Of a stretch of 64,000 nucleotides of DNA, positions 37,299 through 48,586 are shown piece by piece. The position numbers and the translations under genes were made by a program. The stretch lies in contig NZ_CP031217.1 of assembly GCF_003346815.1 (NCBI RefSeq), positions 2,356,001 through 2,420,000 on the forward strand, written 5' to 3'. The notes below the pieces were generated by a model. The model did no database searches, was not told the DNA's origin, and saw only the letters and a list, made by a program, of their open reading frames with translations. Within the stretch, counting starts at the first letter, position 1; the number at the start of each line of letters is the position of its first letter. Source of the DNA: Halarcobacter bivalviorum (GTDB lineage Bacteria; Campylobacterota; Campylobacteria; Campylobacterales; Arcobacteraceae).

Positions 37299-37652
<354 letters not shown>

Positions 37653-37698: not shown

Positions 37699-38886
37699 CT
37701 AAAATGCTCTCTTAAACTCTGGATATGCTTCTAAACCACACTCTTCTACATCTAGCCCTTGCATCTCTTCATCATTGTGAGCTCTTAATGGTGCTATTTT
37801 ATTAATTAGGAATAAAACAACATATGAAACAACAAAAGCAAATACTGCTACAACCGCTACACCTTTTAATTGTCCCAGAAAAGTAATTGTATCCCCATTG
37901 CTTGCAAAAATACCAACTGCTAATGTTCCCCAAATACCATTTAATAAATGAACTGATAAAGCACCCACTGGATCATCAAGCTTTAATTTATCAAAAAATG
38001 ATACACCAAATACAACTAATGTTCCACCAATTGCACCAATTAAAATTGGAGTATAAATATCATAAAGATCTGGTCCAGCTGTAATTGCAACTAATCCGCC
38101 TAAAGCACCATTTAATACCATTGTAATATCAAGCTTTTTATATCTAAAATACATAAATGCACCAACAATAATTGCACCCGATAAACCAGCTGTATTTGTA
38201 TTCATAATAGTTAAAGCAACTGCATCTGCACTCTCTTTAGAAGCAATTGAACCAACTGAACCACCATTAAATCCAAACCAACCAATCCATAAAAGGAAAG
38301 CACCTAAAGTTACAAGAGGAATATTTGAAGCAGGAATTACTCTAACCCCACCCTCTTTTGGATATCTTCCTCGTCTTGCTCCAATAATTAAAATAGCAGC
38401 AAGTAAAGCCCATCCCCCAGTTGAGTGAATAACTGTAGAACCAGCTAAATCATACATAGAGATATCTAAAAATGTTCCAGCTAACATATCACTTCCCCAT
38501 GACCAGTTAACTACTGTTGGATAAATAAATCCACCCATAATAATTGTAAATAAAGCTAAAGGTAAAACTTTTGCTCTTTCACTTACACCACCAGACATAA
38601 TATTAATAACTTTTCCAACAAATGCCATTTGGAATAAAAATGCTGCCCATTTTGACATTGTGTCACTGCCAAAATCTCCAAAAGCAATTGAATAACCAAC
38701 AAGTAAAAATGCCAATGAAGCTACTGCATAAATCATTGTGTTTACCATTAATACTGCTGTAACATTTTTTGTTCTTACAAGTCCTGCTTCAAGCATAGCA
38801 AAACCTGGAACCATAAAAATAATTAGTGTCATTGCAAAGATTGCAAAAAATGTATCTATTACATAGCTAACTGATTGTAAGTCCAT
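37699..38886 (-). CDS. amt: Ammonium channel Amt, copy 1
   Basis: An ammonia/ammonium channel of 395 residues with eleven helices. Landmarks: VPGFAMLEAGLVRTKNVTAV, GGVSERAK, DLAGSTVIHSTGGWALLAAI with the pore histidine, WFGFNGGS, and DDPVGALSVHLLNGIWGTLA with the second pore histidine. The C-terminal tail GLDVEECGLEAYPEF is the PII contact region. It is followed by glnK. A promoter with a 17-bp palindrome precedes it. It has clear sequence similarity to copy 2 but is not a recent duplicate. Confidence 0.95.
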   Translation of the reverse strand: MDLQSVSYVIDTFFAIFAMTLIIFMVPGFAMLEAGLVRTKNVTAVLMVNTMIYAVASLAFLLVGYSIAFGDFGSDTMSKWAAFLFQMAFVGKVINIMSGGVSERAKVLPLALFTIIMGGFIYPTVVNWSWGSDMLAGTFLDISMYDLAGSTVIHSTGGWALLAAILIIGARRGRYPKEGGVRVIPASNIPLVTLGAFLLWIGWFGFNGGSVGSIASKESADAVALTIMNTNTAGLSGAIIVGAFMYFRYKKLDITMVLNGALGGLVAITAGPDLYDIYTPILIGAIGGTLVVFGVSFFDKLKLDDPVGALSVHLLNGIWGTLAVGIFASNGDTITFLGQLKGVAVVAVFAFVVSYVVLFLINKIAPLRAHNDEEMQGLDVEECGLEAYPEFKRAF

Positions 38887-38955
38887 ATTTAACCCTTCCT
38901 AAGTTTTCTTAAGAAACATTATATATTTTTTTTGTGAGTTTATATAGAGAATATA

Positions 38956-38972
38956 TGTATAAAAAATATACA
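38956..38972 (-). promoter_or_regulatory. Palindromic operator candidate upstream of amt copy 1
   Basis: TGTATA-AAAAA-TATACA. Its centre is 43.5 bases upstream of the centre of TATAAT (38918-38923, minus strand). The same motif stands before amt copy 2 at an identical distance and before the glnD operon ten bases closer. Confidence 0.6.
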
Positions 38973-39022: not shown

Positions 39023-39370
<348 letters not shown>

Positions 39371-39493: not shown

Positions 39494-40708
39494 TTAAGCT
39501 TTTTTGAATTCAGGATAACACTCTAAACCTGTTTCATGAATATCTAATCCTGTAATCTCTGTCTCTTCATCTACTCTTAGTCCAACAACTAAATCTAAGA
39601 TTTTCCAAACAATAAATGAAACAACAAAAACAAATGCTCCAATTACAACGATACCTTTTATTTGTGCTAGAAGAGTAACTTCTGGATTGAAAATACCAAC
39701 AGCTAATGTTCCCCAGATACCTGCAACTAAGTGAACAGATAATGCACCTACTGGATCATCAATTCTTAACTTGTCAAAGAAAGGAACTGCAAATACAACT
39801 AAAGCTCCACCAACAATACCTTCAATAAAGGAAACTAACATACCTAAATCTGGACCAGCAGTTACAGATACAAGTCCTGCTAAAGCACCATTTAATACCA
39901 TTGTTAAATCAACTTTTTTGTATAGTAATTGAGTTAAAAGTGCTGCCATAATAGCTCCCGCACAAGCTGCCATATTTGTATCTGCAACTACTAATGCAAT
40001 ACCATCAATATCAGCTTTTGAACCTAATGCTAATTGACTTCCTCCATTAAATCCAAACCATCCCATCCATAAAATGAATGTACCTAAAGTTGCAAGTGTA
40101 AGATTAGAACCAGGGATTGGTCTTACTTTACCATCTTTAGTATATTTTCCTTTTCTAGCTCCAAGTATTAATACTCCAGCTAAAGCAGCCCATCCACCAA
40201 CAGAGTGAACAATAGTTGAACCAGCAAAATCAGAGAACCCAGCAATTAGACCACCAAGTTCAGACCCACCCCATGACCAGTGTCCTTGAATTGGATAAAT
40301 TAGACCACTTAAAACTACAACAAAGATTAAGAAAGGCCATAATTTCATTCTTTCAGCTACTGTACCAGAGATAACTGATGCAGCTGTTGCTACGAACATA
40401 ACTTGAAAAAAGAAATCTGCAGCTGCTGGATATGAAGCATCAGCAGCATTTTCCATACTTATTGTTGAAAAGCTTCCCATAAATGAAGAACCCTCACCAT
40501 ACATTAAGTTATAACCAATAAAGTAATACATAATACAAGAGATTGCAAATAATGCAATATTCTTAGTTAACACTGTTGCATTATTTTTTGATCTAGTTAA
40601 ACCAGATTCTAGCATTGCAAAACCTGCAGCCATCCACATTACTAATACACCTGAAAATACAAAAAGAAATCCATCTAATATGTACTTTAAGTCGTTAAAA
40701 TTTTCCAT
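39494..40708 (-). CDS. amt: Ammonium channel Amt, copy 2
   Basis: The ATG at 40708 (MENFNDLKYILDGFLFVFSG, 404 residues) follows AAAAGGAAG; an ATG five codons upstream would sit within that site. Landmarks are AAGFAMLESGLTRSKNNATV, GTVAERMK, FSDFAGSTIVHSVGGWAALA (first pore histidine region), WFGFNGGSQLA, and DDPVGALSVHLVAGIWGTLA. The tail GLDIHETGLECYPEFKKA is the PII-binding end. Eleven helices, normal length. It is preceded by an extended -10 promoter and a 17-bp palindrome and is the first gene of the amt-glnK tandem. Confidence 0.95.
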   Translation of the reverse strand: MENFNDLKYILDGFLFVFSGVLVMWMAAGFAMLESGLTRSKNNATVLTKNIALFAISCIMYYFIGYNLMYGEGSSFMGSFSTISMENAADASYPAAADFFFQVMFVATAASVISGTVAERMKLWPFLIFVVVLSGLIYPIQGHWSWGGSELGGLIAGFSDFAGSTIVHSVGGWAALAGVLILGARKGKYTKDGKVRPIPGSNLTLATLGTFILWMGWFGFNGGSQLALGSKADIDGIALVVADTNMAACAGAIMAALLTQLLYKKVDLTMVLNGALAGLVSVTAGPDLGMLVSFIEGIVGGALVVFAVPFFDKLRIDDPVGALSVHLVAGIWGTLAVGIFNPEVTLLAQIKGIVVIGAFVFVVSFIVWKILDLVVGLRVDEETEITGLDIHETGLECYPEFKKA

Positions 40709-40776
40709 ATTCTTCCTTTTCAAAGTAATTATGGAAAAATTGTAACAGATTAAGAAAAGAAGATAAACACTTTTTA

Positions 40777-40793
40777 TGTATATATTTTATACA
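40777..40793 (-). promoter_or_regulatory. Palindromic operator candidate upstream of amt copy 2
   Basis: TGTATA-TATTT-TATACA, centred 43.5 bases upstream of the centre of the extended -10 TGTTACAAT (40739-40747, minus strand). Position and spacing equal those at amt copy 1. Confidence 0.6.
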
Positions 40794-40912: not shown

Positions 40913-40929
40913 TGTCTATTTTTTATACA
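40913..40929 (+). promoter_or_regulatory. Palindromic operator candidate upstream of the glnD operon
   Basis: TGTCTA-TTTTT-TATACA, 11 of 12 positions of the amt palindrome. It is centred 33.5 bases before the centre of TATAAT (40952-40957), which is part of an extended -10 TGTTATAAT. The distance is exactly ten bases shorter than at both amt promoters, so it faces the same side of the DNA helix. Confidence 0.55.
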
Positions 40930-40987
40930 TAGCTGCTTTTTCTTTATATGTTATAATTAATAGGACACAGGCTTATAGGAGGGATTT

Positions 40988-41851
40988 ATGAAAGAGTATT
41001 TTGAAGTCTATTTGCAAAATCAAGAGAGGATTGAAGAGTTTATAGAAGAGAGTTTAAATAAATTTGGAGAAGTTAAAAAACATGAAGCAGATAAATTTAG
41101 AACTCTATTTAAAATTTTTCCTTCATTAGAACTTGTTTATATAGTAAACAAAGATACAAAAAAACAAAGCTCTCCAAACTTCTATAGATTTAAAGAAGAT
41201 ATTAAAGAACAAAATATTTCAAGAGAATATCTAATCTCTAAACTTCATTTCAAAGAAGCATGTAAAATTGCTTTTAGTTCTCCTTATATAAGTAGTGCAA
41301 CTAAACATAACTGTATTACTGTTTCAATAAAAGAAGGAGAAGATATTATCTTTTTTGATTTTAGAATTGAAACTTTACTTGAAAGATTAGACTTAATTGA
41401 ATTAAACAAACCCTTCCATACTCTAACAAAAACTTTTTATTTAATTGCTGGGTACTCAATGTTCTTTCTAGCTCTTTTTATTGTATGTTATTCAATATAT
41501 GACTTTGCCCACTCATTCTTAGTAAAGGGTATTTTTGACTTAGATGCTATTTTTAAACCTGTTATTGCACTTACTCTAGGAATTGCTATTTTTGACCTTG
41601 CAAAAACTATCTTAGAGCAAGAAGTATATTTTAAAAGCTATTCAAAAAACTCTAAAGTAGAAACAAAAATTATTACAAAATTTCTTATTGCTATTATTAT
41701 TGCTTTATCTATTGAAGCACTTATGGTTGTATTTAAAATTGCACTTACAGACTATGATAAAATGATTAATGCCCTATATTTAATAACAGGGATTTCACTA
41801 ATTTTAATTGCTTTATCTATATTTATATTTTTAACGAAGAAAAAGAACTAG
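40988..41851 (+). CDS. Membrane protein with PDC-like sensor domain, glnD operon
   Basis: A 287-residue protein. The first 145 residues resemble a PDC/Cache-like sensory fold (KIFPSLELVYIVNKDTKKQS, YLISKLHFKEACKIAFSSPY, HNCITVSIKEGEDIIFFDFR), although no signal or leading helix precedes it, so the sensor may be cytoplasmic. Four helices follow (about 155-175, 190-212, 230-250, 262-282) with a Lys-rich end. Strong site GGAGGG lies before the ATG. It is first in an operon with an NtrC-like protein and glnD, so I infer nitrogen-related sensing or a membrane anchor for these. Confidence 0.7.
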   Translation: MKEYFEVYLQNQERIEEFIEESLNKFGEVKKHEADKFRTLFKIFPSLELVYIVNKDTKKQSSPNFYRFKEDIKEQNISREYLISKLHFKEACKIAFSSPYISSATKHNCITVSIKEGEDIIFFDFRIETLLERLDLIELNKPFHTLTKTFYLIAGYSMFFLALFIVCYSIYDFAHSFLVKGIFDLDAIFKPVIALTLGIAIFDLAKTILEQEVYFKSYSKNSKVETKIITKFLIAIIIALSIEALMVVFKIALTDYDKMINALYLITGISLILIALSIFIFLTKKKN

Positions 41852-41860
41852 GACTAAAAG

Positions 41861-42619
41861 ATGGAAGAATATATTGCAAAATCTAAAAACTCAAAAGAGA
41901 TACTAAACTCAGCTCAACTTTTACAAAGTGTTGAAATTAATGCACTTATTATGGGAGAGACAGGTGTAGGAAAAAAGTCATTAGCAAAATACATCTTACC
42001 AAATGTAAAGATATATAAAGCAAAAAATCTACAGCAAGATATTAGTGATAATCTAATTTCTATTCAAAATGAATCAATAATTATAGATAAGATAGAAAAT
42101 CTTACAAATATTGATTTAGTAGTTAATTGGATAAATCATAACAATATTAGAATCATAGCCACTAGCTTAAAATCTGAATTAAACTCAAAGCTAAATGATC
42201 TTTTTTCAATTACAATAGAACTTCCCCCTTTAAAAGAGAGAGAAGAAGATGTAAAACTTCTTATCTCCAAATTCTCTAAAGAAGCTAGTAGCACTTTAGA
42301 TTTAGAACCAATCCTTCCATCAAAACTTATGATAAACTTATCAAATAATGCCCATAGCCTTAGAAAGTCTATCTACTTTTCATATCTCTTTGAAACAATT
42401 GGAGAAGATGAGATTTTAATGTTTATGGAAAACTATATGTTTGCAAATTTAAAAGGTGAGAATTCATATAAAGATTTTTCATATTTATTTGAAGTACCTC
42501 TATTAAAAGCAGCAAAAAAGAGATATAAGTCACAAGTTCAAATGGCTAAACATTTAGGTTTAAATAGAATTACTCTTAGAAAAAAACTTGATATACATAA
42601 AGGTTTTTTAGATGACTGA
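41861..42619 (+). CDS. NtrC-like AAA+ protein lacking the sigma-54 contact loop, with Fis-type HTH
   Basis: A 252-residue protein. A Walker A (MGETGVGKKSLAKY, about 31-44) and a degenerate Walker B (ESIIIDKIENL) are followed by ELPPLKEREEDVKLLISKFS, the block that in NtrC-family activators reads LPPLRERxEDI. The region between Walker A and B is far too short and has no GAFTGA loop, so sigma-54 activation is unlikely. The Fis-type helix-turn-helix is intact at the C-terminus (KSQVQMAKHLGLNRITLRKK). Hence it may act as a DNA-binding regulator of sigma-70 promoters. It sits between the sensor-like gene and glnD, overlapping glnD by eight bases. Confidence 0.8.
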   Translation: MEEYIAKSKNSKEILNSAQLLQSVEINALIMGETGVGKKSLAKYILPNVKIYKAKNLQQDISDNLISIQNESIIIDKIENLTNIDLVVNWINHNNIRIIATSLKSELNSKLNDLFSITIELPPLKEREEDVKLLISKFSKEASSTLDLEPILPSKLMINLSNNAHSLRKSIYFSYLFETIGEDEILMFMENYMFANLKGENSYKDFSYLFEVPLLKAAKKRYKSQVQMAKHLGLNRITLRKKLDIHKGFLDD

Positions 42620-45149
42620 ATTAAATATTGAGATTGAAGAACTAATTACTAAAGGGGCTGAAGACTTTGAGATTTCTAAAGTATTTAGAACTTACTTTAA
42701 GTCTTATGTAAACTCAATAGATGAAGTTCTTGAAACGACTGGTGGAAAAGACTTTTTCGTAAAACATACAAAACATACTGATAAATTTATTATCCTTTTA
42801 TACAAATATATCTTACGAAAACATTTTGGTGATTATCAGCCAATGAGTACCTCAATTCCCATTACATTAATTGCCTTAGGAAGTTATGGAAGAGAACAAT
42901 TATGTATCTACTCAGATGTTGATTTAATGATTCTTTATGAAGATATAAAAGGTTATAACCTAAAAGCCATTATGGAAGAGCTTGTAACTTTAGCTTGGGA
43001 TTGTGGTTTAAAACTAGGTTCAAGGGTTCATGAAGTAAAGGATATTGAATTTTCTGTACAAGAAGATATTACTATTAAATCTTCAATCTTAGAATCAAGA
43101 ATGATTTATGGTTCAAAACATCTTTGGTATGGTTATCAAAATATTTTAAAGAAAATTAGAAAAACAAATCAAAAAGAGTTTGTATTAGACAAACTTGATG
43201 AGCATAAAAAAAGATTATTAAAATATCCTCTAAAAATGGAACCTAATATTAAAGATGGGTATGGAGGGATGAGAGAATCAAATATGATTTTCTGGATGGC
43301 AACTATTGCTTATGGAGTAAGTGATATAAAACAACTTATGGGAAAAGAGTTTTCAGAAGAAGAGTATAAAAGATATCGAAGCTCTTTAGAATTTATCTTT
43401 AGAGTAAGAAACTATTTACATAGTATTTCAAAAAAGAAATTAGATATTGTAAATTTTGATATTCTTCCTGAACTAAGTACAAAATTAGGCTTTAAAAATA
43501 AACCTAGATTAAATAAAGATAGACAATGTATGGCAAAACTTGTGGAATCTCTTCATAATGTTCACTTCTTCTCTACAATTATGGTAAAAAAGTTTACTAG
43601 AAAGGTTTTATTTGACCCTAAAAATATTTCAAGATTAAGGGAATATAGATTAAAGCAGAATCTATATATTTATGAAAATAAACTTTATACTTCTTTTAAT
43701 GCAAAACCAAAAACTCTAAACAATCTTCTAAAAGAGTTAATCTCTTTACCAAGAGAGGTTAAACACTTTGATAGATCATATGTGGAGTATGCAAGTAGAA
43801 CTAAGTTGCCAAATAAACAAACAAAAGAGTTAAAAAAGACAATCAAACAACTACTTTATAAAAGTAATCTTTATCCAATAATCAAACTTTTATATAATGC
43901 AAGATTGTTTCAAACAGTACTTCCTGTAACTAAAAAAATCATAAATCAACCACAATTTGATGGTTATCATCAACATCCAGTTGATATTCATTCAATTAAA
44001 ACTTTAAAAAAATTAACAAATATAAAAGATGATTATGTAAAAAATATTTTTGATTCCTTTGATGCAAAAGAGAAGACTCTTGTTAGATTAGTTTGTCTTT
44101 TCCATGATGTAGGAAAAGGAAGAATTACAGACCATCATCTTGCAGGAGAAAAACTTTTTAAAAATATGATGAACTCTTTTGAATTAGAAAAAGAGCATAT
44201 TCAATTGGGTTCTTTATTAATTAGACACCATAATATGATGAGTAAAGTTGCTTCAAGTGAAGATATCTATTCTGAAAAAGTTATTCTAGCTTTTACTGCT
44301 TTACTACAAACTCAATTAGCTCTTAAAATGTTATATGTGGTAACTTATGCAGATATCTCAGCTGTGGGAGAATCTGTTTATAAAAGTTCAACTGCTTCAC
44401 TTCTAAAGCAGTTATACTTACAATCTTTGCCTGCATTTAATAATACTTCATTATTAAGTGAAAATGCAAGAAGAATTGCAAAACAAAATAGAATAAAACA
44501 ATCTTCAAGGTATAATGACTTATCAAATATCATGAAGAAAAAAATCACTTATATCTCTTCAAATCAAATGTTTTTAAAATGTAAATCTGATGAAATTATT
44601 GATATTGCAATAAGAGCTTATGAAGTAAAAGATTTCACTTATAAAATTATAAATAAAGACCATTTATCAATAAAAATTATTAGAGCTATTCCCTTAAATT
44701 TAGGTTTTTTATTAGGTAAATTGGAGTTTCTAAATATCTCTACAATGAATATTTTCAAACTATATGATGAAAAGAAATTCTTTGAAATAAACTTTTCTGA
44801 AAAAGTTGATGATGAGGATATTCCATATATTGAACAGATTATTGAAAGCTCTTTTGATATGAGCAAAAAGACTAAACTTCTAATTCCAGAGATTGAAGAA
44901 AAAGGTATTGAAATAAATTGTAATCACACAACTTATTTAGCCTCTATGCAAGTAACTGCAAAAGACCAAAAAGGTCTTTTTGCTTATATTGCTAATATCT
45001 TTGATGAATTTGGAATAGAGATAGAAACTGCTAAACTTAGTTCAATAAAAGGGATGGCAAAAGATCTATTTTTAATTGAAAAAAATGGAAACTTTTGTGG
45101 ACAACAAGAAGAGATAATAAAACACCTATGCAATAGACAAGATAAATAA
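42612..45149 (+). CDS. glnD: PII uridylyltransferase / uridylyl-removing enzyme GlnD
   Basis: Senses glutamine and adds or removes UMP on Y51 of PII proteins. The 845 residues contain the nucleotidyltransferase motif GSYGRE at 90-95 with SDVD at 101-104, the PII-UTase helical part (EPNIKDGYGGMRE), an HD domain (QHPVDIHSIK, then LVCLFHDVGKGRITDHH) for UMP removal, and a C-terminal ACT domain (MQVTAKDQKGLFAYIANIFD, EIETAKLSSIKGMAKDLF). The preceding ACT copy (about 700-760) is divergent. Length fits GlnD. Both PII genes of the window keep Y51, so the system is complete. Co-translated with the NtrC-like gene. Confidence 0.95.
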   Translation: MTELNIEIEELITKGAEDFEISKVFRTYFKSYVNSIDEVLETTGGKDFFVKHTKHTDKFIILLYKYILRKHFGDYQPMSTSIPITLIALGSYGREQLCIYSDVDLMILYEDIKGYNLKAIMEELVTLAWDCGLKLGSRVHEVKDIEFSVQEDITIKSSILESRMIYGSKHLWYGYQNILKKIRKTNQKEFVLDKLDEHKKRLLKYPLKMEPNIKDGYGGMRESNMIFWMATIAYGVSDIKQLMGKEFSEEEYKRYRSSLEFIFRVRNYLHSISKKKLDIVNFDILPELSTKLGFKNKPRLNKDRQCMAKLVESLHNVHFFSTIMVKKFTRKVLFDPKNISRLREYRLKQNLYIYENKLYTSFNAKPKTLNNLLKELISLPREVKHFDRSYVEYASRTKLPNKQTKELKKTIKQLLYKSNLYPIIKLLYNARLFQTVLPVTKKIINQPQFDGYHQHPVDIHSIKTLKKLTNIKDDYVKNIFDSFDAKEKTLVRLVCLFHDVGKGRITDHHLAGEKLFKNMMNSFELEKEHIQLGSLLIRHHNMMSKVASSEDIYSEKVILAFTALLQTQLALKMLYVVTYADISAVGESVYKSSTASLLKQLYLQSLPAFNNTSLLSENARRIAKQNRIKQSSRYNDLSNIMKKKITYISSNQMFLKCKSDEIIDIAIRAYEVKDFTYKIINKDHLSIKIIRAIPLNLGFLLGKLEFLNISTMNIFKLYDEKKFFEINFSEKVDDEDIPYIEQIIESSFDMSKKTKLLIPEIEEKGIEINCNHTTYLASMQVTAKDQKGLFAYIANIFDEFGIEIETAKLSSIKGMAKDLFLIEKNGNFCGQQEEIIKHLCNRQDK

Positions 45150-45163
45150 AATCTTATCTATTG
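45131..45163. terminator. Bidirectional terminator between glnD and the acyltransferase fusion gene
   Basis: Outer stem CAATAGA / TCTATTG and inner AGAT / ATCT with loop AAATAAA, spanning both convergent gene ends. Confidence 0.5.
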
Positions 45164-48100
45164 CTCTGCTGCTAACATTTTTGCTTTTTTAAAATCTATT
45201 TTTCCACTACCAAGTTTAGGAACCTCGTCAACTATTTTATATAAAGAAGGAATCATTAACTTATTATCAAACTCTTTTTTAATACTTTTTTCTAACTCTT
45301 CTACTTCTTCTTCACTTATATTAGAAAGTAATAAAACTATTTGTTCCCCTTTTTTTTCATCAGGTCTTGAAGTAGCTACAAACTCTATGTCATCCCTTGA
45401 AATAAGCTTTTCTACTTTTTGTTCAACTTCTCCCATACTTATCATCTCCCCAGCTAGTTTAGCAAATCTTGAATACCTATCAATTAAAAATAAAAAACCA
45501 TCTTTATCTAAGTAACCTTTATCCCCTGTGATATAATATTTTCGCCCTTGAAGTTTTACTAAGGCTTCTTTTGTTTTCTTTTTATTTTTTAGATAACCTT
45601 TCATAACTTGAACCCCAGAAATAAGAACCATTCCTGCTTTCTCTACTGGTAATTCTTCAAAGGTTTCAGGGTCTACAATCTTAATTTTTGTACCAGGAAT
45701 TGGCATACCTACACTAGAAATTTTATTTCCTATTTGTGTTTCACCTTTTACTTTAATATTTGGAAGATTACAACAAGCAACTGGTGTAGTTTCAGTTGTC
45801 CCATAACCTTCTAAAATCTCTTTTTCAAATTTTTCTTCAAACTCTTCTCGAACTTTAGAAGATAATTTTTCTGCACCTGCAACAACTAATCTTAAAGATT
45901 CAAACATCTGTTTTTTTAACTTCTTATTTTTTGTATATAATCTAAAAAAAGTTGATGTTCCAAGCATTACTGTTGCTCTATATTTTGAAATAAGCTTTCC
46001 TATTTCATAACCATCTGTTGGGTCAGGATGAGCAACACATTTAATTCCTTCAATTAATGGTAAGAAATTTGTTACAACTATTCCAAATGCATGAAACAGA
46101 GGTAAAGAACCTACAATAATATCATCATCATTTACATTCAAAATAGAAGCTATTTGTTGAGAATTTCCTAAAATATTTTTGTGAGTTAATTCTACTCCTT
46201 TAGGAATTCCTTCACTTCCACTACTAAACATAATAAGTGCTGTCTGCTTTTTAGAAACCTTTTTAATATGAATTGCTTTTAAAATAAAACTTGGAAGAAA
46301 AATAACACTTAATAAAGTAGTTAAACCTGTAGATTTAGTGATAAGTTCTTTTAAATCTTCTAAATATACAATATCGCAAATACTTAGAACTTCATTTATT
46401 TTTATGCCCTTCTCTTGTAACTTATTTACAAACTTTCTTGAAGTGACTATTGTTTTAATTTCTGCATTATCTACTGCTACTTTTAAAGAGTCAACAGAAG
46501 CTGTAAAATTTAAATTTACAGCAGTTTTTCCTAACATTAAAATAGAATTATTTATAAAAGCACCTGCACAGCTAGAAGGTAAAAGTAATCCAATATTTTT
46601 ATTTTTAATTCTATACTTCAAAAGATTTTTAAATAAAATAGAAGCTGTTAAAAACTTATATCCAGAAAGTTCAACTCCTGTAGAATCTGCAAATATTATA
46701 TTTCTTTTTACTTGTTTTAATCTATCAAAAATAACTTCAGGAATAGAGTCTAGCTCTTCTATATGTTTCTTCCAAGACTTAGCAGAGAGTAACTTAATCT
46801 CATTTTTTATATTTATCGCCGTTGCATTATGTTTTTTAATTACTTCTGAAAAAGAGATAGTGATAGTATTTGTTCGATAAGACTTTTTATACTTTTCATT
46901 TGCTCTACTAAACATACTTTGCCATAAACCTCTAATATAAAAAGCAACAACGGGAATATCACTATTTGTCTTCTCTAAAATCTTTTCAAAACCCTTTTTA
47001 AACTCTCCAAGATGACCATTTCTAGTAATACTTCCTTCTGGAAATAAAACTATGACATTTCCAGCATCAAGCTCTTTTGCAATTTGTTTAATACTCTCTT
47101 TACTTGATTTAGTACTAATTGGAATAATTTTAAAAAATTTCATTAACCAATTTAAATACCATTTTGAATAGATTGTCTTATCCATTACAAACTTTATCTC
47201 TCTTGGTGTTGCCAAATAAATAACAGCCCAATCTAACCATGAAACATGATTTCCTAAAAGTAAAGCTCCATTTGAAGAAGGAATATTCTTAAGCCCTTGT
47301 ATTTCAAGTTTATATTTTAAACCAACTAAACACTTCAAAAAGAAAATAATCATTGATTGAGGAAGAGAAATCACTACAAAAAAACTTCCTATGCACATTA
47401 AAGTAAGAATTAAATAAATTGTATAAAGTGGATTTAGATTATATAAAGAGACTAAAGTTGTAAGAGCTAAAATAGCAAACATAAATAAAGAGTGAAACCA
47501 ATTATTTCCAGCTAAAATAGTTCCTAATCTTCTTTTAGGAGAGTTAAACTGAATTAATGCATTCAAAGGAACAATAAATAGACCCCCAAAAAAACCAAAT
47601 AATAAAAAAGTAAAAGCTAAAGCATTTGGGTTAACTACTAAAGTAGAGATGAAAATCATCATACTCATACCAAGAGCAGATAAAGGGATTGTCCCTACTT
47701 CTATATAATGTTTTGAATATCTTGAGTAAACATAACTTCCTAAAGCAATACCAATACCAGATGCAGCAATAACCAGGTTAATAACAAAAACATCTGTTAT
47801 CCCTAAATACATCTTCGCATATGCAGGGAAAGTGGCTATCATTCCTTGAGAAATTCCCCAAAATAATCCAAGTCCTAACACACAAAACAAAATAAGTTTT
47901 CTATTTAAAATATCACTAAAATTTTCTTTAAAAAGTTTTCCACAAAACAGAGCTTTCATCTCAAGTTTTAAAGTTTTATCTCTTTTTACCTTTGTTTTTA
48001 TATTATTTAAAACGGCAAATGAAACAAACATCTCTAAAATTGCAATTGGTAAAACATATAAAGCTAATGGTAATAAAGCTTTTAAAAGCTGTTCTTTAGT

Positions 48101-48586
48101 GCTTAAATTATGCAAATTATTAAATTGAAAGAAGTTTTCAAAAATGAAAGAAAAAGTAGCCATTGAGACTAAAATAGCGATAATTGAAATAGCTTGAAGA
48201 CTCGCATTTCCCTTTGAGAGTTCACTTTTCCCATAGATATCAATTATAATACCAAACTTTGCAGGAGAGTATATGGCACTTTGAATTGCAAGTAAAAAAA
48301 GAACAAACATTGCAAAATAAAAAGAACCTATAAAATAAGCAATTAGCATTAAAGCAGATAAAGAAAAAGAGGATAAAGCCCCATAAATTAGAATATTTTT
48401 TTTATGAAATTTATCACTTAGAAAACCACTAATAGAAAAAAGAAGAAGAAAAGGAACTATTATTAGAAGATTAATAATTGAAACCCAAACAACTTGTTCA
48501 CTTCCATCAAATACTTTAAATGCTATATTTTGTAAAAGTATTTTATGGGAAATATCAACTGCTACATTACAAAAAACAACTAACAA
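45158..48586 (-). CDS. Fusion of LplT-like MFS transporter, PlsC-type acyltransferase and acyl-ACP synthetase (Aas-like)
   Basis: A 1142-residue three-part membrane enzyme for lysophospholipid uptake and re-acylation. Residues about 1-400 form an LplT-like MFS transporter (LSGFLSDKFHKKNILIYGAL type loops). Residues about 415-620 are a PlsC acyltransferase with GNHVSWLDW and LFPEGSITRNG. Residues about 640-1140 are an AMP-forming ligase with ALIMFSSGSEGIPKGVELTH, GYGTTETTP and ITGDKGYLDKDGFLFLIDR. In E. coli LplT and Aas are separate. The TTG at 48586 lies inside helix 1 and has no ribosome binding site; the frame stays open upstream, and AAAAGGA-AATAAA precedes an ATA codon at 48619, so the true start may be there. 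Confidence 0.88.
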   Translation of the reverse strand: MLVVFCNVAVDISHKILLQNIAFKVFDGSEQVVWVSIINLLIIVPFLLLFSISGFLSDKFHKKNILIYGALSSFSLSALMLIAYFIGSFYFAMFVLFLLAIQSAIYSPAKFGIIIDIYGKSELSKGNASLQAISIIAILVSMATFSFIFENFFQFNNLHNLSTKEQLLKALLPLALYVLPIAILEMFVSFAVLNNIKTKVKRDKTLKLEMKALFCGKLFKENFSDILNRKLILFCVLGLGLFWGISQGMIATFPAYAKMYLGITDVFVINLVIAASGIGIALGSYVYSRYSKHYIEVGTIPLSALGMSMMIFISTLVVNPNALAFTFLLFGFFGGLFIVPLNALIQFNSPKRRLGTILAGNNWFHSLFMFAILALTTLVSLYNLNPLYTIYLILTLMCIGSFFVVISLPQSMIIFFLKCLVGLKYKLEIQGLKNIPSSNGALLLGNHVSWLDWAVIYLATPREIKFVMDKTIYSKWYLNWLMKFFKIIPISTKSSKESIKQIAKELDAGNVIVLFPEGSITRNGHLGEFKKGFEKILEKTNSDIPVVAFYIRGLWQSMFSRANEKYKKSYRTNTITISFSEVIKKHNATAINIKNEIKLLSAKSWKKHIEELDSIPEVIFDRLKQVKRNIIFADSTGVELSGYKFLTASILFKNLLKYRIKNKNIGLLLPSSCAGAFINNSILMLGKTAVNLNFTASVDSLKVAVDNAEIKTIVTSRKFVNKLQEKGIKINEVLSICDIVYLEDLKELITKSTGLTTLLSVIFLPSFILKAIHIKKVSKKQTALIMFSSGSEGIPKGVELTHKNILGNSQQIASILNVNDDDIIVGSLPLFHAFGIVVTNFLPLIEGIKCVAHPDPTDGYEIGKLISKYRATVMLGTSTFFRLYTKNKKLKKQMFESLRLVVAGAEKLSSKVREEFEEKFEKEILEGYGTTETTPVACCNLPNIKVKGETQIGNKISSVGMPIPGTKIKIVDPETFEELPVEKAGMVLISGVQVMKGYLKNKKKTKEALVKLQGRKYYITGDKGYLDKDGFLFLIDRYSRFAKLAGEMISMGEVEQKVEKLISRDDIEFVATSRPDEKKGEQIVLLLSNISEEEVEELEKSIKKEFDNKLMIPSLYKIVDEVPKLGSGKIDFKKAKMLAAEQ

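Follow-up and report, generated by a model that had tools for sequence, protein, structure and literature searches.

A predicted nitrogen regulator derived from NtrC that lacks the receiver domain and the sigma-54 contact loop in Campylobacterota

We describe a gene of Halarcobacter bivalviorum whose product is predicted, from sequence comparisons, to be a nitrogen-responsive activator of sigma-70 promoters derived from NtrC. We estimate the probability of this reading, which includes both the predicted binding to DNA and its positive sign, at roughly 0.7. The gene is located at positions 41861 to 42619 on the forward strand of a 64,000-nucleotide stretch of the genome (hereafter the window), and it codes for a protein of 252 amino acids composed of a degenerate AAA+ domain and a Fis-type helix-turn-helix (HTH). 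Palindromes of 17 bp precede its own operon and a small set of nitrogen assimilation genes, and each of these palindromes in the window is followed at a fixed distance by a −10 box. Related proteins are found widely among the Campylobacterota, where the presence and type of the palindrome vary with the presence and type of the protein.

Anatomy of the regulator and its operon

The protein had been described in an initial annotation as NtrC-like, with a Walker A motif, an LPPLKEREEDV block, and a Fis-type HTH but without GAFTGA, and this description is confirmed by the open reading frame (ORF), Pfam matches, and alignments. Pfam scans match the protein to Sigma54_activ_2 (E = 1.3e-6) and, over residues 5–54 only, to Sigma54_activat (E = 3.1e-5). 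The nearest NCBIfam profile is NtrC / NR(I) (TIGR01818), which is matched over two partial stretches with 41 bits against a cut-off of 559. The HTH_8 score is 19.9 bits (E = 6e-4) in a single-protein Pfam scan, which is below the cut-off of 22, and 22.8 bits in a search of the genome, which is slightly above it.

The Walker A sequence GETGVGKK is retained at residues 32–39. Its G32, G37, and K38 are invariant in an alignment of 11 diverse sequences, and the lysine is changed to arginine in one of 49 orthologues (L094). The LPPLKEREEDV block occupies residues 121–131. The presumed Walker B strand, SIIIDKIE, spans residues 72–79 and is separated from Walker A by 32 residues, in keeping with the earlier remark that little sequence lies between the two motifs. 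Its glutamate is replaced by lysine (IIIDK), and the aspartate is also missing in many relatives, as judged by eye from the 49-row alignment. The arginine finger and sensor residues have presumably been lost as well, according to our reading of the alignments against the features of NtrC.

No receiver domain was detected by Pfam in the regulator, which begins at the AAA+ domain. GAFTGA is absent from the window protein and also from the 49-row alignment as printed, which shows only columns filled in at least 30% of the rows. Because the listed orthologues align over almost the entire 252 amino acids, loss of this loop is general among them; the initial annotation had asked whether the loss of GAFTGA is conserved. 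The regulator carries the L1 deletion seen in the GAFTGA-less kind of NtrC.

Five structure models of the regulator disagree with each other (mean pLDDT of 72, 69, 52, 48, and 46). In the best of these models, block means of pLDDT are 85–95 over residues 11–120 and fall below 50 in parts of the HTH. The best structural matches of this model are FlrC, NTRC4, and NtrC1 (Z of about 16 and rmsd of 2.5–2.9 Å, with 177–183 residues aligned), and VpsR is also among the matches. The modeling indicates that the regulator has the AAA+ fold of enhancer-binding proteins.

The HTH aligns with that of Fis, and its N235 and R236 match the Fis Asn-Arg pair at the start of the recognition helix. The N-R-x-T feature of this helix is likewise present in the HTH_8 and Fis alignments. 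Residues 232–243 of the protein read LGLNRITLRKKL, and the codons of LGLNRITLRKKLD (residues 232–244) occupy positions 42554 to 42592 of the forward strand. In the genome search, the regulator is the only HTH_8 match of the host above the cut-off.

The regulator ORF begins 9 bp past an ORF for a membrane protein of 287 amino acids (40988 to 41851, forward strand) and overlaps by 8 bp with glnD, the gene for PII uridylyltransferase (42612 to 45149, forward strand; ORF list, Pfam, and NCBIfam). The membrane protein, which matches no Pfam family, is predicted to consist of an N-terminal alpha/beta domain followed by four long helices, and its structure model yields only weak PAS/Cache-like matches (YkuI and Cache chemoreceptors). 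A membrane protein of this type also adjoins the regulator in genome G393 (locus L086). Two ammonium transporter genes are carried on the reverse strand: amt1 (39494 to 40723; Pfam), whose true start may lie downstream of the listed codon, and amt2 (37699 to 38886; ORF list and Pfam). Each is followed by a PII gene (39023 to 39361 after amt1, 37299 to 37637 after amt2; both reverse strand, ORF list and Pfam), and both transporter genes are predicted targets of the regulator. On the other side of glnD, a reverse-strand ORF of 1142 amino acids (45158 to 48586) reads as a putative transporter, an acyltransferase, and an acyl-activating enzyme in one chain.

Palindromic sites and promoter geometry

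The exact pattern TGTATAN5TATACA occurs three times in the 2,684,688-base host genome and zero times in the reversed control, and the three sites precede amt2, amt1, and glnA. The predicted operators of amt2-glnK2 (TGTATATTTTTTATACA, 38956 to 38972) and amt1 (TGTATAAAATATATACA, 40777 to 40793) lie on the reverse strand of the window, each centered near −53. The third exact site (L001) is found 67 bp upstream of glnA, which extends the predicted regulon beyond the window. The predicted operator of the regulator operon (TGTCTATTTTTTATACA, 40913 to 40929, forward strand, centered near −43) carries one mismatch (TGTCTA). The palindromes previously noted before this operon and both amt genes are therefore real, with the operon copy being imperfect.

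Sites with one mismatch are at background levels genome-wide (26 versus 41 in the control), and the window count of six at three mismatches is ordinary, as it was reached by 9 of 100 shuffles. For this reason, the assignment of the own-operon site rests on its conservation in relatives. Given that 17 of the 22 one-mismatch sites examined (L206–L227) fall inside ORFs and that this class as a whole is at background, we rejected such sites as regulon members. Three of them are retained as weak candidates, and as candidates only because of that background: L211 (G000:C1:293693; before an amino-acid-type ABC transporter ATPase gene), L218 (G000:C1:2251565; before a porin gene), and L221 (G000:C1:1235495; before gdhA).

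Nine named relatives (L034–L042) carry regulators with 64–89% protein identity. Sites with no more than one mismatch are located 67–71 bp before amt2 (129 bp in L042), 65–69 bp before amt1 in genomes with a reliable start call (L042 lacks this site), and 44–60 bp before the membrane-protein gene. The distances in L034 (amt1) and L041 (amt1 and the membrane-protein gene) are distorted by over-long start calls.

The host genome, a single contig with 99.98% completeness, has no match to PF04552, the DNA-binding domain of sigma-54 that was used to search for rpoN. It also has no full-strength enhancer-binding protein, as its six PF00158 matches, which include the regulator, score at most 30.5 bits. 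Because rpoN is lacking, the regulator cannot act through sigma-54 in this organism, and sigma-54 dependence in the host was rejected. When 69 genomes were surveyed in the same way, PF04552 was absent from 14 of the 29 genomes of the window's family that carry the regulator (carriers) and from all 13 non-carriers, and it was present in the other 15 carriers and in 23 of 27 sampled genomes of other families.

Each palindrome in the window is followed by a plausible −10 box. The regulator operon has TATAAT, preceded by TGT, 22 bp after the operator (40952 to 40957, forward strand), and on the reverse strand amt1 has TACAAT (40739 to 40744) and amt2 has TATAAT (38918 to 38923), both 32 bp after the operator. 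These spacings hold more widely: a −10-like hexamer is found 31–32 bp after the operator at 14 of 15 glnA, 9 of 9 amt1, and 9 of 10 amt2 promoters, and 21–22 bp after it at 8 of 10 promoters of the regulator's own operon, compared to a rate of 3–5% in shuffled sequences. These counts leave out the glnA promoter of L123, where the site picked was spurious and a two-mismatch site exists.

If the hexamer is taken as −12 to −7, the operators are centered at about −52/−53 and −42/−43, one helical turn apart. Activators of sigma-70 promoters typically sit near −52 and −42, and the operator positions therefore argue against simple repression. The absence of rpoN and the fixed −10 spacing also lend support to the earlier proposal that the protein does not remodel sigma-54 and acts at sigma-70 promoters.

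The palindromes are consistent with recognition by a Fis-type HTH. Good Fis sites have been described as 15-bp sequences with G/C at position 7, a pyrimidine-purine step at ±(3–4), an A/T center, and T at ±8 (PMC4784862). TGTATAN5TATACA satisfies all of these rules, as does a second palindrome discussed below, TGATTAN5TAATCA (T-A at ±(3–4)). Among 45 aligned sites, which include the spurious row of L123 glnA and whose consensus arises partly by construction because the rows were picked by motif, G at −7 is present in 44, C at +7 in 45, T-A steps at ±(3,4) in at least 44, and an all-A/T center in 41.

Distribution and covariation of protein and site

Relatives of the regulator were found with E ≤1e-3 in 171 of 397 Campylobacterota genomes, and orthologues occur in many families of this phylum. 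Five hits in f3/g24, with E values between 1e-4 and 1e-3, were left out of the carriers; we would guess that these may be FlgR-like proteins.

Exact TGTATA sites are present in all 29 carriers of the window's family (1–21 each, mean 5.6) and number 0–2 (mean 0.4) in its 13 non-carriers, a contrast that does not represent 42 independent points because few loss events underlie it: on a glnA tree, the carrier label needs two changes, of which the well-supported branches force only one. The background is about one exact site per genome, as the reversed control totals 29 sites in the 29 carriers. Within genus g2 alone, seven carriers have 3–8 exact sites, and of ten non-carriers nine have none and one has a single site.

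The same distinction is evident at individual promoters. The glnA gene is present in each of 30 sampled genomes, which comprise 17 of the 29 carriers and the full set of 13 non-carriers, and an operator with at most two mismatches is situated 60–71 nt before the aligned start in 16 of the 17 sampled carriers (12 exact; the exception is G134) and in none of the 13 non-carriers. Likewise, no operator precedes amt in any of the nine non-carriers that have this gene. A two-mismatch TGTATA site does occur 128–155 nt before a PII gene in non-carriers G008, G276, and G334. In non-carriers G381 and G218, exact sites located within the glnA coding stretch were rejected as regulatory elements.

Some carriers have additional exact sites. 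For G337, G370, and G297, we examined ten of sixteen exact sites, having set aside sites upstream of glnA and sites closer than ~7 kb to the regulator, and all ten are intergenic. The neighboring genes include those for glutamate dehydrogenase, glutamate synthase, a Gcw_chp protein, an SMR transporter, a dCache protein, a circularly permuted ATP-grasp protein, and quinohemoprotein amine dehydrogenase. The last of these lies beside an operator in three relatives (L228, by Pfam; L234 and L236, by a similar protein start), which suggests that amine use may be part of the nitrogen response.

Across 49 orthologue loci (the nine named relatives and 40 others that were fetched), the regulator gene occurs mostly in three settings. 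It is found beside glnD, usually with the membrane protein (f1); beside a gene for a PAS-domain protein, often with amt, glnK, or aspC (f4, f6, f8/g25, f9, and some f1); or between slyD and fabD (f7, f10, the other f8, f11–f13, and single f2 and some f3 genomes). The last arrangement accounts for 18 loci (L078–L080, L082–L085, L087, L091–L095, L098, L101–L103, and L117), in which the regulator is located away from nitrogen genes.

Many lineages that depart from the main glnD operon arrangement encode the PAS protein, which is about 230 amino acids long, next to the regulator. Examples are located at L088:6223-6903, L086:6995-7684, and L090:7599-8330, and 18 more are included in our alignment. 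A PAS fold is supported in 10 of these 21 members at E ≤0.1 (best 8e-7). We rejected the notion that the partner is a degenerate NtrB histidine kinase, as a search for a kinase domain returned none and only the PAS fold was recovered; the protein may be a relic of NtrB or a partner resembling NifL. Some lineages have neither the membrane protein nor the PAS protein beside the regulator.

In a tree of the 49 proteins, the f4/f6 sequences form clade 1 (12 rows, support 97/94), 17 of the 18 slyD rows group together (98/93), and clade 3 unites the glnD type with nine PAS-neighbor forms (93/82). Outside the window's family, a second palindrome is prominent. TGATTAN5TAATCA averages 3.1 sites per genome in f7 (51 carriers), 2.8 in f10 (21 carriers), and 2.0 in f4 (28), compared to 0.76 among f1 carriers and 0.19 among 215 f2/f3 genomes that lack the gene; the reversed control yields 9 sites in all 51 f7 carriers.

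TGATTA sites precede amt and glnA in most of the slyD-type genomes checked. With at most one mismatch allowed, 11 of 16 slyD-type genomes have such a site upstream of amt or a PII gene, whereas two other-family genomes that lack the regulator have none there. With at most two mismatches, it precedes glnA in 15 of 16 slyD-type and 4 of 6 clade-1 genomes and in none of four genomes without the regulator; the carriers without the expected glnA site are G074, G234, and G388. Some of these genomes were assigned to the slyD type by family (G133, G165, G319, G362, and G379) or to clade 1 by genus (G225 and G388). The promoter geometry is also retained, since a −10 hexamer is located at 31–32 bp in 21 of the 22 other-family glnA promoters with a TGATTA-like site and at 21 bp in one, and at 31–32 bp in 29 of all 42 sites in that comparison, which also covered amt and the regulator gene.

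The correspondence has exceptions. Near the gene itself, a TGATTA-type site precedes amt or the regulator gene at 4 of 12 clade-1 loci, TGATGAN5TCATCA occurs at one, and seven have none. Four of the nine clade-3 PAS-neighbor loci (L089, L096, L107, and L108) have no TGTATA-type site in the stretches scanned. An exact TGTATA site lies 14 nt before an amt gene in G378, which is of the slyD type, and a one-mismatch TGATTA match that lacks the −7 G is found 188 nt before amt in G008, a non-carrier. Of five exact TGTATA matches in G319 (f7), four contain a common core, TGTATATGTTATATACA or its complement, and resemble repeat copies more than operators.

The recognition-helix residue 237, which is isoleucine in the window protein, is asparagine without exception in the 18 slyD rows and the 12 clade-1 rows. 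In clade 3, 18 of 19 rows have Ile, Val, Ala, or Thr at this position, the exception being L096 (G249), which has asparagine; genome-wide, G249 has two exact TGATTA sites and zero TGTATA sites. The evidence that site type covaries with the regulator clade and with residue 237 is strong but, because few evolutionary changes underlie the pattern, not conclusive. The co-occurrence of protein and site, the dependence of site type on clade, and the Fis-type rules support the earlier suggestion of this regulator as the best candidate for binding the palindromes, and its standing as the sole HTH_8 match over the cut-off adds to this support. On these sequence-based grounds, we consider it very probable that it does bind them.

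Proposed mechanism and relationship to known systems

We propose that an NtrC-type enhancer-binding ancestor lost its receiver, L1 loop, and ATPase residues. The two Fis-type HTHs of a dimer would read the 17-bp palindrome through T−8, G−7, the pyrimidine-purine step at 4/3, and the A/T center. Positioned upstream of sigma-70 core promoters, at about −52 for glnA, amt1, and amt2 and about −42 for its own operon, the dimer would recruit or help the housekeeping RNA polymerase, neither contacting nor remodeling sigma-54. The AAA+ part retains its nucleotide-binding loop and has lost its hydrolysis machinery, so that nucleotide would serve at most as a ligand. Because the receiver is gone, the signal would have to come via a ligand or a partner. 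We infer that nitrogen status probably arrives through PII/GlnD and a partner, which would be the membrane protein in this operon and the PAS protein elsewhere. Control by the membrane protein had been suggested tentatively in the initial annotation.

It is unlikely that the regulator binds these sites as a repressor under nitrogen excess. An operator centered near −42 could block polymerase, and Caulobacter NtrC, which lacks GAFTGA, is reported both to activate and to repress (PMC10274813). However, an operator at −52, the most frequent position, does not cover the −10 region, and two positions one helical turn apart with otherwise fixed spacing are what an activator requires. In addition, glnA and amt are usually induced targets, which also counts against repression. 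Quite unlikely, too, is the possibility that the palindromes are nitrogen-regulon operators of another factor for which the NtrC-like protein is a mere target or accessory. The site at the regulator's own operon is what a simple target would bear, a second regulator with the same distribution could have been lost along with it, and CemR (Cj1608) influences the levels of GlnA and GltBD in C. jejuni (PMC11334517). However, the rules that the sites follow fit a Fis-type dimer, the genome offers only one HTH_8 match over the cut-off, and the prevailing palindrome varies with the regulator clade even when the gene lies in the slyD-fabD context.

We see almost no likelihood that the regulator still works with sigma-54 in some form. 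The rpoN gene is indeed present in many carriers in the counts given above, but the idea is already contradicted in genomes that lack it, which include the host and nearly half of the family carriers; moreover, the protein has neither the L1 loop nor the Walker B glutamate, and −10 boxes stand at a constant distance from the operators in its target promoters. An origin of the palindromes as chance AT-rich matches or RNA hairpins is similarly far-fetched, even though the one-mismatch count in the genome is at background and the three-mismatch count in the window is ordinary. The sites keep their positions across the nine named relatives, apart from gaps in one or two of them, and they lie upstream of the −10 box and are therefore not transcribed from that promoter. 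Chance palindromes and hairpins were rejected on the basis of exact-site counts versus the control, conservation, and position.

The activator reading can be broadened to state that most Campylobacterota families control nitrogen by an NtrC that lacks the receiver, the sigma-54 loop, and ATPase activity; that this protein outlives sigma-54 in some genomes; that its specificity switched between TGATTA and TGTATA half-sites with residue 237; and that it is a pseudo-ATPase governed by nucleotide and partner proteins rather than by phosphorylation. We lean only slightly toward this wider formulation.

Such a control system in the Campylobacterota seems to have been previously unrecognized. A survey of Proteobacteria regulons that included NtrC omitted the Epsilonproteobacteria because they lacked orthologues of the factors it targeted (PMC5343134), and the genome paper for A. 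butzleri lists NtrB/NtrC family genes, RpoN, and FliA as absent (PMC2147049). Aside from the effects of CemR (PMC11334517), we found no dedicated nitrogen-assimilation regulator of Campylobacterota in our searches of the open-access literature, and we found no description of this regulator or its operator among the top-ranked open-access papers on nitrogen control, rpoN, GAFTGA, or the Fis precedents. With the gene, operator sequence, regulon, and promoter geometry in hand, the question of nitrogen control is now directly testable. The regulator also provides a case of an NtrC relative outliving sigma-54, and its clades and site types offer a natural series for the study of protein-DNA coevolution.

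Compared to Fis, with which its HTH aligns and whose Asn-Arg pair and core operator rules it shares, the regulator has its HTH joined to an AAA+ domain, and its sites are few, palindromic, and promoter-specific. TyrR, DhaR, and VpsR carry other N-terminal domains and control regulons other than nitrogen. These proteins resemble the regulator in being relatives of enhancer-binding proteins that have lost the sigma-54 contact (PMC3162934). The core targets glnA, amt, and glnK are shared with NtrC / NR(I) (TIGR01818), whose core regulon is given in PMC5343134, whereas the window regulator lacks the receiver and GAFTGA and its host lacks sigma-54.

The closest precedents are two GAFTGA-less NtrC proteins that act at sigma-70 promoters. 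Rhodobacter capsulatus NtrC requires the binding of ATP but not its hydrolysis (PMC10274813), and HupR is another GAFTGA-less protein of the NtrC type that acts at sigma-70 promoters (PMC3162934). Caulobacter NtrC likewise serves nitrogen assimilation, there with glnBA as a target, but its GAFTGA deletion removes only eight residues, its receiver is present, and its Walker A and B residues are needed (PMC10274813). Full activation by both proteins depends on aspartyl phosphorylation (PMC10274813; also PMC3162934). The window regulator differs from R. capsulatus NtrC in having no receiver, no recognized kinase beside it, and more ATPase residues lost, and from Caulobacter NtrC in being receiver-less, ATPase-degenerate, and spread through another phylum. 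The kind of protein is known from R. capsulatus and Caulobacter NtrC, and the widespread receiver-less form that persists without sigma-54 appears to be new.
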